In this document: in pieces, positions 17,534 to 25,983 of the stretch
Position numbering within the stretch: the first letter of the stretch is position 1
Layout of the letters: the number at the start of each line of letters is the position of its first letter
Assembly (NCBI GenBank): GCA_028285415.1
Contig: JANQPF010000023.1
Coordinates: forward strand, 1-64,000
DNA: 64,000 nt
Direction of reading: 5' to 3'
Origin: Pseudomonadales bacterium
GTDB lineage: Bacteria > Pseudomonadota > Gammaproteobacteria > Pseudomonadales > Azotimanducaceae
Notes under the pieces: model-generated
Told to the model about the DNA's origin: nothing
Seen by the model: the letters and a program-made list of their open reading frames with translations, nothing else
The model's database searches: none
Position numbers and translations under genes: made by a program

Positions 17534-17549
17534 TGGCACGGCGCTTGCT
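17534..17549 (+). promoter_or_regulatory. Sigma-54 (RpoN) promoter of the subtilase gene
   Basis: TGGCACGGCGCTTGCT matches the -24/-12 consensus TGGCAC-N5-TTGC at every position. The start of transcription would fall near 17560, leaving a leader of about 24 bases before the ATG at 17584. Known: such promoters need RpoN and an AAA+ activator; none is encoded in the window. Inferred: the protease is turned on by nitrogen or surface/motility signals. Confidence 0.8.
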
Positions 17550-17583
17550 GTATTACCGGCAACACCAACATTCGGAACGACCC

Positions 17584-19497
17584 ATGCTGGGCAAGAAAAC
17601 GATACTGACACTCCTGATGGCATGCTGCACCACACTTGCCTGGGCATCACCGACAAACCCGGAGACCACCACCAGGGTCATCGTGCAGGCAAATTCTGCC
17701 GAGGCGGCCCTCCAGGCGGTGCAAAGCACCGGCGGTAAAGTCGAGCGTTTGCTCGGGATCATCAACGCCGTCAGCGCAGACCTCTCGGACGATCAGCGTA
17801 CCCTCCTGACGAAGATGGCGGGTATCAGAGTCATCGAGGACGCCAACGTCAAGATCAACGGGCGTGATGACGACGATGAAGACGACGACGAGAAGGAGGA
17901 CAAAAAGAAAAAGAAAAAGAAGAAGGAAAAGAAGAACAAAGAAAAGAAATCCAAAGACAAAAAGAACAAAGACAACAAGGACAAAGGGAAAGATAAGCGC
18001 AGCGAGCGCGAAGCGCGCGATGACGACGACGAGCGTGATGATCACGACGAGCGTGATGATGACGACAAGCGTGAAGACACCGACGAACGCAACGTCACAG
18101 ACGTCAAGAACGAAAGTAACAACACCGTCTTTTCCGGCCTCCGGGCGCTCTTCGACGCCGTGAGCACGGACGATGTCCCGCCCGTCGCCTTTCCTGGTCT
18201 GATTGGGGCGGACCAGGTCCACGACGCCGGTATCAGCGGTAACGGCGTTACCGTCGCCGTGCTCGACACCGGGTTCGACATCATTGATGGACTGGAACGC
18301 AAAGCCGAAGGCGGATGGCGCTCAATCCACGGCTACGACAGCATCAACGATTCCATCTGGACCGCGTGGCGTGATCCCAACGGCCACGGCACCCACGTCA
18401 GCTCCATCATCGTCAACAGCGATACCACCACCGAGGGCGGACCGACCGGAATCGCGCCAAATGCCAACCTCGTCTACGTCAAAGCGTTCGACCGGGAAGG
18501 TCGCGCGAGCTACGTCAGCGTCATCAGCGGACTAAACTGGATCCTTGAAAATAGAGAGCGGCTGGGCGTGCGCGTGCTGAATCTGTCATTCAGCGCAACA
18601 CCGCGCTCACACTACTGGGATGATCCGATCAATCAGGCGGTGATGCGCCTGTGGGACGCCGGCGTTGTCGTCGTAGCATCCGCCGGGAACAACGGCCCGG
18701 ATCCAATGACCATTGGCGTGCCCGGTAACAACCCCTACGTCATCACCGTAGGCGCCATGAGCGACAATTACACGGCCGACCCCAGTGACGATGTGTTGAC
18801 CTCATTCTCCTCCGCCGGCCCCACCCACGAAGGATTCATCAAACCGGAGATTGTTGCACCCGGCGGTCACATCAGAGCGGTCATGTTCGCCCTGACAGCC
18901 CAGATTGCCAGAGAGCACCCCCAATTCCAGATCAACGAAAACTACTTCGAGATGTCCGGCACCTCTCAGGCGGCGGCAGTCGTCAGCGGCGTGGTTGCCC
19001 TCATGCTCGAAGCAAAACCCTGGCTGACGCCGGATGACGTGAAGTGTCAGCTCATGGCTTCCGCCCGCCCGGCGCGCAGCGCCGACGGGAGCCTGGCTTA
19101 CTCCATCTTTCAGCAGGGCGCCGGCATGGTGGACGCGGTTGCCGCCATCGACAGCAACGAGCTTGCCTGCGCCAACCGGGGGTTGAACGTGCGTGCGGAT
19201 CTGGATGGCACCGCGCACTTTGCAGGACTTGCCAATCGAGATGCGGAGGGCAACTACTACGTGATGGGCCTCGACGGTTTCCTCTGGTCCAATGGCTTCC
19301 TCTGGTCCAACGGCTTCCTGTGGTCCAACAGCGCCATGGAGACGAACGGTTTCCTGTGGTCGAACGCCTTTCTCTGGTCCAACGCGTTCCTCTGGTCCAA
19401 CAGCCTCGAAACCGAAGGTTTCCTCTGGTCCAACGGTTTCCTCTGGAGTAACTCCGAGGTGGATACCAGCGTCAACCGCTGGGTTGACCAGGAATAA
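17584..19497 (+). CDS. secreted S8 subtilisin-like protease with charged linker and FLWSN repeats
   Basis: 637 residues from the ATG at 17584. Seen: signal peptide (1-21, ending LAWA), I9-like propeptide (29-88), an extreme Lys/Asp/Glu linker (95-170), catalytic domain with Asp228 (AVLDTG), His268 (NGHGTH), oxyanion Asn in SAGNNGP and Ser461 (SGTSQAA), then eight FLWSN units at 565-623. Known: S8 proteases hydrolyse proteins outside the cell or at its surface; Trp-Ser/Asn-Asp tail repeats occur in other bacterial S8 proteins with unknown role. Inferred: exported protease, perhaps surface-bound via the repeats, under sigma-54 control. The linker is purine-only over long runs, unlike its neighbours. 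Confidence 0.92.
   Translation: MLGKKTILTLLMACCTTLAWASPTNPETTTRVIVQANSAEAALQAVQSTGGKVERLLGIINAVSADLSDDQRTLLTKMAGIRVIEDANVKINGRDDDDEDDDEKEDKKKKKKKKEKKNKEKKSKDKKNKDNKDKGKDKRSEREARDDDDERDDHDERDDDDKREDTDERNVTDVKNESNNTVFSGLRALFDAVSTDDVPPVAFPGLIGADQVHDAGISGNGVTVAVLDTGFDIIDGLERKAEGGWRSIHGYDSINDSIWTAWRDPNGHGTHVSSIIVNSDTTTEGGPTGIAPNANLVYVKAFDREGRASYVSVISGLNWILENRERLGVRVLNLSFSATPRSHYWDDPINQAVMRLWDAGVVVVASAGNNGPDPMTIGVPGNNPYVITVGAMSDNYTADPSDDVLTSFSSAGPTHEGFIKPEIVAPGGHIRAVMFALTAQIAREHPQFQINENYFEMSGTSQAAAVVSGVVALMLEAKPWLTPDDVKCQLMASARPARSADGSLAYSIFQQGAGMVDAVAAIDSNELACANRGLNVRADLDGTAHFAGLANRDAEGNYYVMGLDGFLWSNGFLWSNGFLWSNSAMETNGFLWSNAFLWSNAFLWSNSLETEGFLWSNGFLWSNSEVDTSVNRWVDQE
19276..19452 (+). repeat. 18-bp coding tandem repeats (FLWSN array)
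   Basis: Eight units of GGYTTCCTSTGGTCCAAY-type sequence encode (G/A)FLWSN, in runs of three, three and two separated by SAMETN and SLETE spacers. Units differ by few bases, showing recent duplication. They lie within the subtilase gene and keep its frame. Confidence 0.9.
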
Positions 19498-21464: not shown

Positions 21465-21611
21465 GTCTTCTCCTTCGGGCTACACACATGAGTATGACGA
21501 ACGAAAGGCCACGAATCAGACAGCATTTCGCGCGGCAATTTGTGCGCGTATCCCTGCGTGACGTGCCGCCGTGATGGGATCTACTCCAGACGATGGCTGC
21601 CCCCAGGAGGT

Positions 21612-21662
21612 AAAAGCAGACCGAACGGCCCGGGTGGCGCGCCGCTCCGGGGGCGTTCGGTC
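21612..21662 (-). terminator. Rho-independent terminator of the UGSC operon
   Basis: GACCGAACG at 21619-21627 pairs with CGTTCGGTC at 21654-21662, and the stem is extended by GC-rich pairing. Read on the minus strand it is followed by TGCTTTTACC. It lies 28 bases after the stop of the UGSC gene and closes that operon. Confidence 0.65.
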
Positions 21663-21689
21663 AGCTGACCGCGCGGGCGATCGACGCCT

Positions 21690-22211
21690 TCAGGTCGATC
21701 GCAGCGCTCCGATCACCTGTTCGACGACTGCATCTGCCTTGGCGCGCATCTCATCGTCGGTGGCATCCTGAATGGGATGAGCGACGAAAACCCGCTGTGC
21801 ATCGGTCATACCCAGCGCCGCAGCCTGAGTTTGCGCGGCGTCGACAAACTCGGTCGATGCAATCGAAACCGCAGGCGTACCCTGAATCTCAAACCATACC
21901 GTGTCATGCAAACTGCACGTGGTACAGGAGCCTCAGTCGGCAAGCGCCTCGATGACAAAATCGTTGTCCGCCTGAATCTGCTGACGCAGGTCTTCCGGGG
22001 CGGGCTTGGTGAACGTCGGCTTGGCGTAGCGGTTGAAGGTGACGCCGGGCAGACGCTCCGTCAGCAGCTCTTCGAGCCGGTCGATCAGCACGTTGCCGCG
22101 GGGCTTGGAGATATCCAGAAACGCAACGTTTCCGGTAATTTCCGCCGGCCGCGGCGTGATGGTGCGTGTCACGGGCACACGCTCATCCGTCGGGTCCAGA
22201 ATGGTTGGCAT
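21690..22211 (-). CDS. UGSC-motif selenoprotein (in-frame UGA read as selenocysteine)
   Basis: 173 residues from the ATG at 22211 (GAGGAG upstream) if the TGA at 21933-21935 is read as Sec93. Seen: both sides of the TGA are in one frame and fit one protein: FVIEALAD-U-GSCTTCSLHD then VWFEIQGTPAVSIASTEF. Taken as a stop, the gene would lose its conserved C-terminal half. Known: a family with exactly a UGSC motif is described as '(seleno)protein' in bacteria, with Sec or Cys at the first position; Sec-x-x-Cys pairs act as redox centres. Inferred: thiol/selenol redox enzyme, paired with the upstream thioredoxin fusion. SelA/B/C/D are not in this window. Confidence 0.87.
21897..21924 (-). promoter_or_regulatory. 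Candidate bacterial SECIS hairpin
   Basis: In the mRNA, UACC pairs with GGUA outside and CGUGCA with UGCAUG inside (one G-U pair), with a GUU apical loop whose G is 20 bases after the UGA. Known: bacterial SECIS elements are short stem-loops right after the UGA with a G at the start of the apical loop at about this distance. The fit supports Sec insertion. Confidence 0.6.
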
Positions 22212-22242
22212 AGCCACTCCTCTTTCGTTGAAACAGTTCGGG

Positions 22243-23811
22243 TCAAAGCTCGTCGATCTTACGCGACACGGAGATCGAGCCGATTTCTCCGGTCGCCCAG
22301 CCGTGGAACGCGCCGGAAAATTTCCCGGCCTCCGAGCCCGCCACGACAATGTGAATGTCTTCGTCCGTGCGGAACTTGGGCAGGCGCTTGTCGAGCGCCT
22401 CTTCGTCCATGTTCGCCGCCATCTCCTGCTTGAATCCCGCGCCGGATACATCGTCCGCAACGAGATCGCGAATGGGTCGCGCCGTGACTTCCTGGATGCG
22501 CCGGCGCAGATCCGCCTTCGTATAACCATCGCGCATCAGGGTGTCCACATGTTCCGGGACAACCACGAGCAGGCAGTCGGTTGCGTAGTGCGCCTTGGGA
22601 TTAAACGCCGCTTCGAGACAGAGCCCCATGGTACCGGCAAGCTGACCGGCCGAGCGTGATTCCTGATCGACTATCAGCGTAGGTCCGCTTGTCATTGTGA
22701 ACACTGTCACCACGGAGTCTTCCGCCTCGAATCCCCGCTCGACGTGAAGCGGTGTCCACGGATTGCGCTCTTCCCACTCCGCAAAACAGAGCGTGAACTT
22801 CATCGGGTTGCCAAGCGTCGAGCGTTCGGTGCCGCCCGGCTCGGCACCGCCGACGTTGCGAATCAGGAGACGTACCGCACGGCCGATGGTGGCGTTGGCT
22901 CGATTACCCTGCCCCAGCGCGCCGAGCTTCATGTTCATGCCAATCTTCTCGCGCACGGGGCCGTTCACGACGACTACCGGACTGGCTCCCATGGTGGTCG
23001 CCATGACGCCGTGGATGTTGTACTCGTCCGTGCAGATCGCCTGCACAATCGTGTTGATGACGGGCATGTATTCAGGTTTGCAGCCGGCCATGACGGCGTT
23101 AATGGCCGCTTTCTCGACGGTCACCTCCCCCATGTTCGGCGGCATGACGGCCAGCACCTCCTGTGGATCGCGGCGGGTGCCCGCCAGCATGCGCATCACC
23201 CGTTCCGGGGTGGGCGGGACCAGGGGCAGCCCGTCGGAGAAACCCTGGTCGAACATGAATTCGAATTCGTCGTCCTGCGTCCCAATGTCGATACGCCGCG
23301 CTCTGAGCGGGCTGTTTTCGGATTCCGCGCGCAGGCGCTCGGAAATTGCGGGATCTACGGACTTCGAGCCGCAGCCCGGGCGCCATTCCGGCAGCGCGTC
23401 CCAATCGACATCCGCGCTGCCACCAAGCTCGTCCGCCAAAGCCCGCCACTCGTCACGCACGAAGCCGATGAGCGTGCGCCGAGGCGCGCCGTCGGCGTCG
23501 GACCAGAAGAGCGTCGGCACGGTGTCAATGTCACTGGCAAACGAGACTTTCAGATCAGAATCGTCCAGTAGCGGCTGCGGCGGCGAGAATTCCGTCTCGA
23601 GGATCTCGTTACCCTCCGCGGTCTGACCCACGATATGGACGTCGAGTGCGGCCCCGAGCGTGCGCTGCAGGGCGCAGAGCACCGGCATCACTTCTCTGCA
23701 GGTCGGACAGTCTTCCTTGACGAAACAGACAAGGCTCTCGCGCCCGGATGGGAAGCTGATGTCCGTGCCGGCCGAGTTGGATAATGAGAACGGCGGTACC
23801 GCCAGGCCCAT
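22243..23811 (-). CDS. thioredoxin-like domain fused to a conserved UGSC-associated domain
   Basis: 522 residues, ATG at 23811 with GGGGAG before it. Seen: an N-terminal thioredoxin/AhpC-like domain (about 1-140) with CPTC in VKEDCPTCREVMP, then a linker and a long conserved region (about 180-520) with FSDGLPLVPPTPERVMRMLA, AGCKPEYMPV, MGASPVVVVNGP and GNRANATIGRAVRLL. I cannot place the second domain in a named enzyme family, but have seen it near UGSC proteins. Inferred: the CxxC domain reduces or couples to the selenoprotein encoded 31 bases downstream. No signal peptide, so cytoplasmic. Confidence 0.75.
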   Translation of the reverse strand: MGLAVPPFSLSNSAGTDISFPSGRESLVCFVKEDCPTCREVMPVLCALQRTLGAALDVHIVGQTAEGNEILETEFSPPQPLLDDSDLKVSFASDIDTVPTLFWSDADGAPRRTLIGFVRDEWRALADELGGSADVDWDALPEWRPGCGSKSVDPAISERLRAESENSPLRARRIDIGTQDDEFEFMFDQGFSDGLPLVPPTPERVMRMLAGTRRDPQEVLAVMPPNMGEVTVEKAAINAVMAGCKPEYMPVINTIVQAICTDEYNIHGVMATTMGASPVVVVNGPVREKIGMNMKLGALGQGNRANATIGRAVRLLIRNVGGAEPGGTERSTLGNPMKFTLCFAEWEERNPWTPLHVERGFEAEDSVVTVFTMTSGPTLIVDQESRSAGQLAGTMGLCLEAAFNPKAHYATDCLLVVVPEHVDTLMRDGYTKADLRRRIQEVTARPIRDLVADDVSGAGFKQEMAANMDEEALDKRLPKFRTDEDIHIVVAGSEAGKFSGAFHGWATGEIGSISVSRKIDEL

Positions 23812-23928: not shown

Positions 23929-25113
23929 GTGGGTGAAGTAGCTGAATTCCGCGCTGAAGTCGCCGCCTGGTTGCAAGACAACTGCCCTGAAGGCGCGCGT
24001 GGCCCGGGCGAGATCCCCAACGGATCATCAAAAATCGAGCTGGAGCCGGATACCAAACGGTGGCTCGAAGCCTGCGTCGAGCGCGGTTATACCGCACCCA
24101 CCTGGCCTACCGAATACGGCGGCGGGGGCTTGAGCCCGCAGTTTGCCAAGGTCCTCTACGAAGAGATGGCGGCCATCAAAGCGCGCTCGCCGCTGGTAGG
24201 TATGGGCACCGCAATGATTGGGCCGACGCTCCTGGAATACGGCACGGAAGAACAGAAACAGCGCCACATTCCGGGCATTGTGCGCGGCGAGGTGCAGTGG
24301 TGTCAGGGCTATTCCGAGCCGAACGCAGGCTCAGACCTGGCCGCCTTGATGACCAAGGCGGAAGACAACGGCGATCACTACGTCATCAACGGACAGAAGA
24401 TCTGGACGTCAGGTGCCGCCACCGCCGACTGGATGTTCATTCTGGTGCGCACCGACCCCGACGCGCCCAAGCACGAAGGGATCAGCTTCATGCTGCTCAC
24501 GATGGATCAGCCGGGCGTGACCACCAAACCGATCCGCCTCATCTCCGGATCTTCGCCTTTCTGCGAGACGTTTTTCGACGATGCCATTGCACAGAAGGAA
24601 GATCTGGTCGGGGAGCTCAACAAAGGCTGGACCGTCGGCAAACGTCTGCTGCAGTTCGAGCGTTCCGGCATCGGCGGACTGACCGGCGGCGCCCGCGTTG
24701 CCGATCCCAGCAAGTCCCTCATCAAAGCGGCCAAAAACTACGTTGGTGAAGCGGACAACGGCACCATCGCGGACGACGATCTGCGCAACGATGTGCTCGA
24801 CCTCAACATGCAGCGCACGGCGTTGAATCTCACCGCCAAGCGTGTGAACGAAGAGACCAAATCCGGGACGCCGGGCGCGGCGACGAGCATCTTCAAGATC
24901 GTCGGCGCCACGCTACAGCGCGACACCGCGGATCTGAAGCGCGAACTGATGGGATTCAGAGGCCTCGGCGCCCACGAGGAAATCGGCTTTACCGCCGATG
25001 AGCTCAAAGCGACCGAAGAGTTCCTGCATCTCAGAACCACCACAATTTACGGTGGCAGCAGTGAAATCCAGGCAAACATCATCGCCAAGCGCGTGCTGGG
25101 GTTGCCGGAGTAA
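23929..25113 (+). CDS. acyl-CoA dehydrogenase
   Basis: 394 residues from a GTG at 23929 with TGAGGA upstream. Seen: N-terminal helical domain, QGYSEPNAGSDLAAL and INGQKIWTSGA of the beta domain, GFRGLGAHEE and IYGGSSEIQANIIAKRVLG at the C-terminus. Known: FAD-dependent desaturation of acyl-CoA thioesters. Odd: the site of the catalytic Glu in medium-chain enzymes is Gly in YGGSS, so the base must lie elsewhere, as in isovaleryl/long-chain types. Inferred: beta-oxidation of an unusual acyl group; divergent from the selenoprotein operon and followed by a TauD dioxygenase. Confidence 0.9.
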   Translation: MGEVAEFRAEVAAWLQDNCPEGARGPGEIPNGSSKIELEPDTKRWLEACVERGYTAPTWPTEYGGGGLSPQFAKVLYEEMAAIKARSPLVGMGTAMIGPTLLEYGTEEQKQRHIPGIVRGEVQWCQGYSEPNAGSDLAALMTKAEDNGDHYVINGQKIWTSGAATADWMFILVRTDPDAPKHEGISFMLLTMDQPGVTTKPIRLISGSSPFCETFFDDAIAQKEDLVGELNKGWTVGKRLLQFERSGIGGLTGGARVADPSKSLIKAAKNYVGEADNGTIADDDLRNDVLDLNMQRTALNLTAKRVNEETKSGTPGAATSIFKIVGATLQRDTADLKRELMGFRGLGAHEEIGFTADELKATEEFLHLRTTTIYGGSSEIQANIIAKRVLGLPE

Positions 25114-25137: not shown

Positions 25138-25983
25138 ATGGCAGTCATTGACGGGTTCGAAACCATCGGCGTCGACAGCCTGACGCCGCATATCGGCGCG
25201 GAGATCGACGGGGTTGATCTGTCGCAGCCGCTCTCCAACGAGCAGTTCAGTGAGATCTACCAGGCCTGGCTCGACTGGAAAGTCCTGGTGTTCCGCGATC
25301 AGGTGATTGAGCCTGAGCATCACAAGACTTTTGCGCGCAAGTTCGGATCGCTGCACGTGCACCCGATGCAGCACAGCTACGGCGGTGACCCGGAAATCCT
25401 GCGGATCAAAACCACCAAAGATTCCGCCTATACCGCCGGCAACGGCTGGCATACCGATGTCACGTGCGACGAAATTCCACCGCTCGGCTCGATGCTTTAC
25501 ATCAAGGAAACGCCGGCAAGCGGCGGCGGAGATACGTTGTACGCCGACATGTATCTCGCCTACGAGCTCCTGAGCGATACGATGAAAGACATTCTGGATG
25601 GCCTGGTGGCGGTCCACGATGGGGCCATCCCGTACCTCGGTAACTACCGGGTAGCACCGCCGGACGGCGAAAAGTACCCGCGCAACGAGCACCCGATGGT
25701 CACCCGACATCCGGAGACCGGCAACAAAATCCTCTACGTGAACAGCGGCTTCACCTCACACATCAAAGGCATGAATCCGTGGGAAAGCCGCGCGATCCTG
25801 CATGCGCTCTACGATCACATTGCCAAGACGCCGCGGCTGACCTGTCGCGTGGAATGGCGTCCGAACACGCTCACGTTCTGGGATAACCGCTGCACGCAGC
25901 ATCACGCCATCTGGGATTACTGGCCGGACAGCCGCTACGGTGAACGCGTGTCCATCCTGGGTAACGAACGCCCCGCAGCCTGA
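25138..25983 (+). CDS. TauD/TfdA family dioxygenase
   Basis: 281 residues. Seen: DGVDLSQPLSNEQ, HGD-like iron site His105-x-Asp107 in GWHTDVTCDE, distal His255 in DNRCTQHHAIWDY and the arginine in YGERVSILG. Known: Fe(II)/2-oxoglutarate hydroxylase of the taurine/2,4-D type; the QHHAIWDYWP ending resembles the TfdA/alkylsulfatase side. Inferred: oxidises a small acid or sulfonate/ether, in one unit with the acyl-CoA dehydrogenase (24 bases upstream) and esterase (9 bases downstream). Confidence 0.9.
   Translation: MAVIDGFETIGVDSLTPHIGAEIDGVDLSQPLSNEQFSEIYQAWLDWKVLVFRDQVIEPEHHKTFARKFGSLHVHPMQHSYGGDPEILRIKTTKDSAYTAGNGWHTDVTCDEIPPLGSMLYIKETPASGGGDTLYADMYLAYELLSDTMKDILDGLVAVHDGAIPYLGNYRVAPPDGEKYPRNEHPMVTRHPETGNKILYVNSGFTSHIKGMNPWESRAILHALYDHIAKTPRLTCRVEWRPNTLTFWDNRCTQHHAIWDYWPDSRYGERVSILGNERPAA

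Follow-up and report, generated by a model that had tools for sequence, protein, structure and literature searches.

A UGSC-family gene with an in-frame TGA and its adjacent partner gene in a Pseudomonadales genome

UGSC proteins form a published and catalogued selenoprotein family (PF24696, NF041046; PMC2398784, PMC13188914). In metagenomes from the ocean and from fresh water they ranked with the most abundant selenoproteins, and forms with cysteine (Cys) were rarer than forms with selenocysteine (Sec), at 21 against 255 in the Global Ocean Sampling (GOS) table (PMC2398784). The same paper gives UGSC a 'likely Trx-like fold' (Trx, thioredoxin) and mentions its fusion with 'Unknown_1'. In a 2026 review the functions of the selenoprotein group to which UGSC belongs are described as largely uncharacterised (PMC13188914). 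Here a further member of the family is described from a Pseudomonadales bacterium, where it is encoded at 21690..22211 on the minus strand of the 64,000-nucleotide stretch that was analysed (the window). The gene just upstream encodes a second protein, referred to as the partner, and the locus as a whole is quite probably explained by a Sec-decoded UGSC selenoprotein which works with this neighbour-encoded partner. The partner offers a concrete route to the function of an unexplained selenoprotein.

The window's gene shares with the family as published its profile, motif, in-frame UGA and UxxC pair, but its predicted fold is not Trx-like as in PMC2398784. Two other described systems resemble parts of the locus. 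GrdB/PrdB proteins (PF07355) have a UxxC, and a profile alignment suggests that their Sec may stand at the matching place, whereas the UGSC protein is shorter (173 residues, where the GRDB-like proteins used for comparison have 266-426), does not match PF07355 and has another partner. Glycine reductase depends on thioredoxin (PMC13188914). The ResA/StoA thiol-disulfide oxidoreductases resemble the N-terminal part of the partner in sequence, predicted fold and CPxC motif; in the partner, however, this domain is fused to an uncharacterised core, and distant partners are without it.

The UGSC gene and the selenocysteine machinery

A first-pass annotation, made from the sequence and its open reading frames, had joined two pieces into one 173-residue protein on the assumption that the TGA at 21933-21935 encodes Sec. 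The joined protein held up. From the ATG at 22211 the minus-strand frame runs through 92 residues, the TGA, 80 further residues and a terminal TGA (21690-21692); UGA thus does double duty in this gene, as Sec codon and as terminator. Residues 3-170 match PF24696 (E 1.9e-47, 162 bits, cut-off 25). A second match, of residues 28-170 to NF041046 ('UGSC family (seleno)protein'), scores 162.5 bits where the cut-off is 125. Both matches span the TGA. Sec is residue 93 and the first position of U-G-S-C (residues 93-96), which had been named as the motif of a known family and is invariant across 31 aligned proteins, including the Cys form of genome G143. The ribosome site that had been placed ahead of the ATG can be seen by eye as a Shine-Dalgarno-like AGGAG at 22217..22221 (minus strand), five bases 5' of the start. 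A promoter/terminator scan gave no promoter-like site, and terminator-like sites were no commoner than in shuffled sequence. Nothing useful came from an Rfam scan of 21600-22300, where a single microRNA match fell far under its cut-off.

The selA, selB, selC and selD genes, which the first-pass annotation had proposed as a check, are all present in the genome. A tRNA-Sec was found on contig C4 (73.6 bits, cut-off 47) and was identified by ARAGORN as SeC with anticodon tca. It adjoins selB and selA; SelA was recognised at E 1e-141, and SelB has its own beta-barrel and winged-helix domains. Contig C21 encodes SelD (271 bits) as part of a 720-residue protein in which it is joined to a pyridine-nucleotide oxidoreductase (Ndh-SelD), a kind of fusion that is mentioned in PMC2398784. 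Directly 3' of the tRNA-Sec, on the selA-selB-selC contig, lies a tyrosine integrase gene (L011:2229-3488, minus strand), which suggests that a mobile element integrated at selC. The genome also encodes a second UGSC protein with a TGA (G000:C10:8993-9505, locus L101) and four GRDB-like proteins, each with an in-frame TGA (L106 on C11, L109 and L112 on C2, L115 on C15). Three of these four read U-x-x-C, while L115 reads U-P-L-D.

A contig scan for related genes gave 248 stretches, and the 80 best of these were retained. Every one of the 80 has TGA at the Sec position, where the search pattern allowed any residue. Other stops are used normally: 79 of the genes end in TAG (34), TGA (32) or TAA (13), and in the last the terminator lies beyond its locus. 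The distribution of the family was then surveyed in a phylum sample of 398 genomes and an order sample of 194, counting matches above the profile cut-off. UGSC was found in five genomes (seven loci) of the phylum sample, with the Sec TGA in five loci (two each in G000, the window's genome, and G139, and one in G311) and TGC in G143 and G277. The Cys copy of G277 (L099) is degraded: its frame is shifted, and an in-frame TGA occurs at another place; an open core gene, of the kind described below, stands beside it. In the order sample 15 genomes carry 21 loci, 20 with TGA and one (G447) with TGT. Weaker matches in G460, G481 and G500 and one in G540 fell below the cut-off and were not counted; the three that were inspected (L138-L140) do not contain the motif.

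The Cys homologues anticipated by the first-pass annotation therefore exist, and they occur in genomes where tRNA-Sec was not detected. This tRNA was found in all 22 Sec-form genomes searched (G000, a set of eight and a set of thirteen), in none of the three Cys-only genomes (G143, G277 and G447, the last only 75% complete) and in none of ten genomes without UGSC. Genuine tRNA-Sec scored at least 66.9 bits in one scan batch, while weaker matches reached 52 bits, some of them above the Rfam cut-off of 47. The best matches of G143 (51.5 bits) and G277 (46.7 bits) are tRNA-Ser according to ARAGORN, which confirmed two strong matches as tRNA-Sec. The case shows Cys replacing Sec where tRNA-Sec was not found. 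A genome devoid of sel genes, together with homologues that end at the TGA, would have spoken for a stop; what was found is the reverse. With the required genes present at the level of sequence, the TGA at 21933-21935 is almost certainly decoded as Sec.

The SECIS element

Bacterial Sec insertion sequence (SECIS) elements have been modelled as hairpins with a loop of 3-9 nucleotides, an upper stem of 4-16 base pairs and a G in loop position one or two, lying 16-37 nucleotides from the UGA with a folding energy of -7.5 or lower (PMC13188914). The window's gene has a candidate of this type at 21894..21927 on the minus strand. Its apical stem of six base pairs (21919-21914 with 21910-21905) closes on the loop GUU (21913-21911), and a lower stem, which is less well supported, joins 21927-21921 to 21900-21894. 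The hairpin with a G in its apical loop, noted in the first-pass annotation, is thus present and fits the published model, while its distance from the UGA is 19 nucleotides rather than 20. It agrees with the consensus in its three-nucleotide loop with G first and U second, its six-pair upper stem and its spacing (PMC13188914), and the 48-nucleotide stretch folds at -12.2 kcal/mol. No difference from the consensus was seen in the window's gene; the differences lie in the paralogue on C10 and in some relatives, which are without the same stem.

It is codon freezing and covariation, rather than folding energy, that support the hairpin. In 79 distinct genes the codons from Sec+5 to Sec+12 are nearly fixed, with Ser AGT in 79/79, Thr ACG in 78/78 and Leu TTG in 74/75. 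Codon entropy averages 0.19 bits from Sec+4 to Sec+12, whereas the mean of 81 other conserved positions is 1.49 (P 8e-7, which is only a guide since the positions share one tree). Covariation of the apical stem was examined in 18 diverse sequences, picked by hand and aligned with MAFFT, which also placed the row of L124, whose cut lay six bases too late; near-copies of the window were excluded, as were L101 and L130, in which the stem is not shown. The six pairs are formed in 95.4% of cells, and two of them are changed on both sides in four sequences (C-G to G-C and U-A to G-U). Of 500 shuffles, none reached the covariation score and 20 had at least as many pairs with both bases changed. In G143, the Cys form is without the AGU loop. 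The case thereby supplies a covariation-supported SECIS.

Several observations count against the hairpin. Its energy alone is not significant when compared with dinucleotide shuffles (z -1.21), and across 42 distinct homologous stretches the mean z against synonymous recoding is -0.70. The apical pair 22-26 is unformed in 5 of the 18 sequences, and in a 29-sequence set pairing of the lower stem reaches only 81.6% of cells. Moreover, the second UGSC gene of the genome (L101) and the relatives L130, L170 and L171 have the TGA but not the common apical stem. What follows the UGA in these four is a 20-base stretch of their own, identical in all of them and perhaps a different SECIS type.

The partner protein and its core domain

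The partner gene (22243..23811, minus strand) lies 31 bases upstream of the UGSC gene and encodes 522 residues, comprising a thioredoxin-like domain and a core. The N-terminal domain is closest to ResA/StoA by sequence and predicted fold and carries a CPTC redox motif at residues 35-38 (23698..23709). The core, residues 180-522 (22246..23274), is the part that co-occurs with UGSC. At about 340 residues, it gave nothing above cut-off in Pfam or NCBIfam, and its profile found no match among PDB sequences at E up to 10. A structure search with a model of all 522 residues did not lead to a recognised core fold; the best 50 of 1392 matches were thioredoxin- or peroxiredoxin-type or uncharacterised proteins, over about 130-210 columns. 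In an alignment of 14 sequences the partner has 35 invariant columns.

A core gene stands just upstream of UGSC in 76 of the 80 relatives, at least five of these cores being cut by a contig end, and CPTC is found at 68 of the 80 loci. The partner of G143 has CETC instead. Among the 194 genomes of the order sample, those in which the core was found are precisely the 15 with UGSC (Fisher P 1e-22); of these, G000 is the only one that entered the core model under its handle. In the phylum sample it was found in 5/5 UGSC genomes and in none of the other 393 (P 1e-11). In each genome the search scores first-look candidates only up to a limited number. The order sample contains 21 UGSC matches and 21 core matches. 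For 20 of the UGSC matches a core match lies no more than about 210 bases away, in one case on the opposite strand. The remaining UGSC match is a natural fusion: in G465 (L141:370-1995, minus strand) a single 542-residue frame contains UGSC with its TGA, followed by the core. 'Unknown_1' of PMC2398784 may be this same core. Those portions of the literature that were consulted (PMC2398784, PMC13188914, PMC9312934, PMC7539508, PMC5029168) yielded no description of a constant core partner.

Some findings are at odds with so simple an association. The 5/5 match of the phylum sample is partly circular, since those five genomes, together with close relatives of the window, supplied the sequences for the core model and should match it; the informative part is the absence elsewhere. 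In four Chloroflexi relatives the partner is not adjacent; three of these genomes encode a core elsewhere, with CPTC, and no core was found in the fourth, G572. The more distant partners L012, L096, L099 and L102 are without the Trx domain, so reduction by a fused Trx domain cannot be general. Nonetheless, the co-occurrence, the adjacency and the one natural fusion make it very probable, as judged from genome comparison, that UGSC and the core are a functional pair. Confined to UGSC genomes in both samples, nearly always adjacent and once fused, the core makes with UGSC a defined pair which could be expressed and assayed jointly.

A separate observation was made in G139, where a thioredoxin-reductase-like flavoprotein with a CxxC is encoded just upstream of a UGSC-core pair (L102:2020-2892, minus strand). 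A further core copy adjoins it.

Fold, proposed mechanism and neighbouring genes

An AlphaFold model of UGSC, based on 31 sequences (predicted local distance difference test, pLDDT, 90), is a five-stranded alpha/beta structure with Sec just before a helix. Its structural matches are mostly flavin mononucleotide (FMN) reductases, flavodoxins and similar folds, with template modelling (TM) scores of about 0.4-0.5, and none of the best 50 of 1761 PDB matches is described as a thioredoxin. The predicted fold is thus flavodoxin/Rossmann-like and not that of thioredoxin. A search of PDB sequences with the UGSC profile returned only a chance match (E 0.75). The core showed no convincing similarity to the UGSC profile.

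In the proposed mechanism, the ribosome would insert Sec at the UGA, with the downstream hairpin serving as a SECIS recognised by SelB with tRNA-Sec. As the model and conservation indicate, the product would be a small protein of alpha/beta type whose Sec belongs to a UxxC pair at the N-terminal end of a helix, and it would act together with the protein encoded next door. The selenolate may attack a substrate that UGSC and the core domain of the partner hold between them, leaving the UxxC pair oxidised (Se-S). Its re-reduction would fall to a thioredoxin, in this case the CPTC domain attached to the core. We infer that UGSC is somewhat likely to be such a thioredoxin-fed UxxC reductase. Tentatively, its activity may be a reductive bond cleavage like that of GrdB/PrdB. 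It is doubtful, on present grounds, that UGSC and the core make up a new two-part selenoenzyme of marine and other environmental bacteria, one that is distantly akin to GrdB/PrdB, is fed by a thioredoxin domain attached to the core and carries out the reductive cleavage of an organic substrate. Counting against the mechanism is the fact that the recurrent TauD-type and acyl-CoA dehydrogenase neighbours, described below, name no substrate.

The alternative that survives best regards UGSC as a GrdB/PrdB-type unit, in which Sec attacks a substrate carbon and cleaves a C-N or similar bond while the core activates the substrate. It speaks for this alternative that U-x-x-C is common to UGSC and most GRDB-like proteins, that one UGSC pair (L102) has a thioredoxin-reductase-like gene next to it and that the profiles align Sec on Sec. 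The GRDB-like profile was built from ten proteins; of twelve matches fetched, L104 was excluded for masked bases and L108 for a contig end. A profile of 46 UGSC sequences aligned to it with a score of 38.1 (probability 65%), placing Sec on Sec and a late HP on FP, where the best of 60 column shuffles scored 28.0 and the best of 109 neighbour proteins 26.7. With 31 UGSC sequences the score was 36.2, and the best of 100 column shuffles reached 20.2. Single GRDB-like proteins did less well, as only 4/10 exceeded the best neighbour control (3/10 with the smaller UGSC profile), and once the UxxC columns were masked only 34 columns aligned. Furthermore, UGSC itself has no match to PF07355 at E up to 10, the core shows no similarity to the GRDB-like profile, and no pyruvoyl-type subunit was identified, the core being without a Pfam match above cut-off. 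The profile comparison is no more than suggestive of a relation between UGSC and GrdB/PrdB, and a unit of this type has less than an even chance of being the right description.

Alternatively, and in line with a published suggestion, UGSC could be a thiol oxidoreductase with a thioredoxin fold and a general antioxidant role, to which the partner is merely a convenient reductase. The CPTC Trx domain of the partner would suit such a role, but the UGSC model is flavodoxin/Rossmann-like with no thioredoxin among its best 50 PDB matches, and the partner's Trx-domain profile does not match UGSC (probability 1.6%). A specific partner of 340 residues with so many invariant columns would not be expected for a general antioxidant, and this alternative is unlikely. 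It is very improbable that the TGA is a real stop, giving a truncated product or marking a decaying gene whose downstream half is a remnant: the degraded Cys copy of G277 does show that loss occurs in the family, yet the TGA is kept in 80/80 relatives with a conserved frame and nearly frozen SECIS codons, the Sec machinery is complete, and Cys forms appear only where tRNA-Sec was not found. Readthrough of the UGA as another amino acid, such as Trp or Cys by a near-cognate tRNA, can be dismissed as less credible again, since tRNA-Sec tracks the TGA copies by genome (22/22 against 0/3), the SECIS is conserved, and TAG, TGA and TAA otherwise serve as normal terminators among the relatives.

Beyond the Sec-decoded UGSC protein and its partner, the window contains two plus-strand genes that are divergent from the partner gene, encoding an acyl-CoA dehydrogenase (23929-25113) and a TauD-type dioxygenase (25138-25983). 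Relatives of each were found in 37 of the 80 UGSC loci, and both together in 28; in those loci the acyl-CoA dehydrogenase is always divergent from the partner. Their recurrence may reflect either gene order inherited among close relatives or a shared pathway. Among 109 neighbour proteins of 21 loci, a selection from 157 proteins of 25 loci, there were 14 major facilitator superfamily (MFS) proteins, 11 TauD-type proteins and 7 acyl-CoA dehydrogenases, and the other neighbours vary. No thiol-redox or selenium gene was seen among the best 25 of 57 Pfam families of UGSC neighbours. Elsewhere in the window, a subtilase is encoded at 17545-19497 on the plus strand (PF00082, E 7e-50). It contains a low-complexity stretch rich in lysine and aspartate and, towards its C-terminus, an array of about ten repeats of the GFLWSN/AFLWSN type, encoded by 18-base units at 19274-19446.
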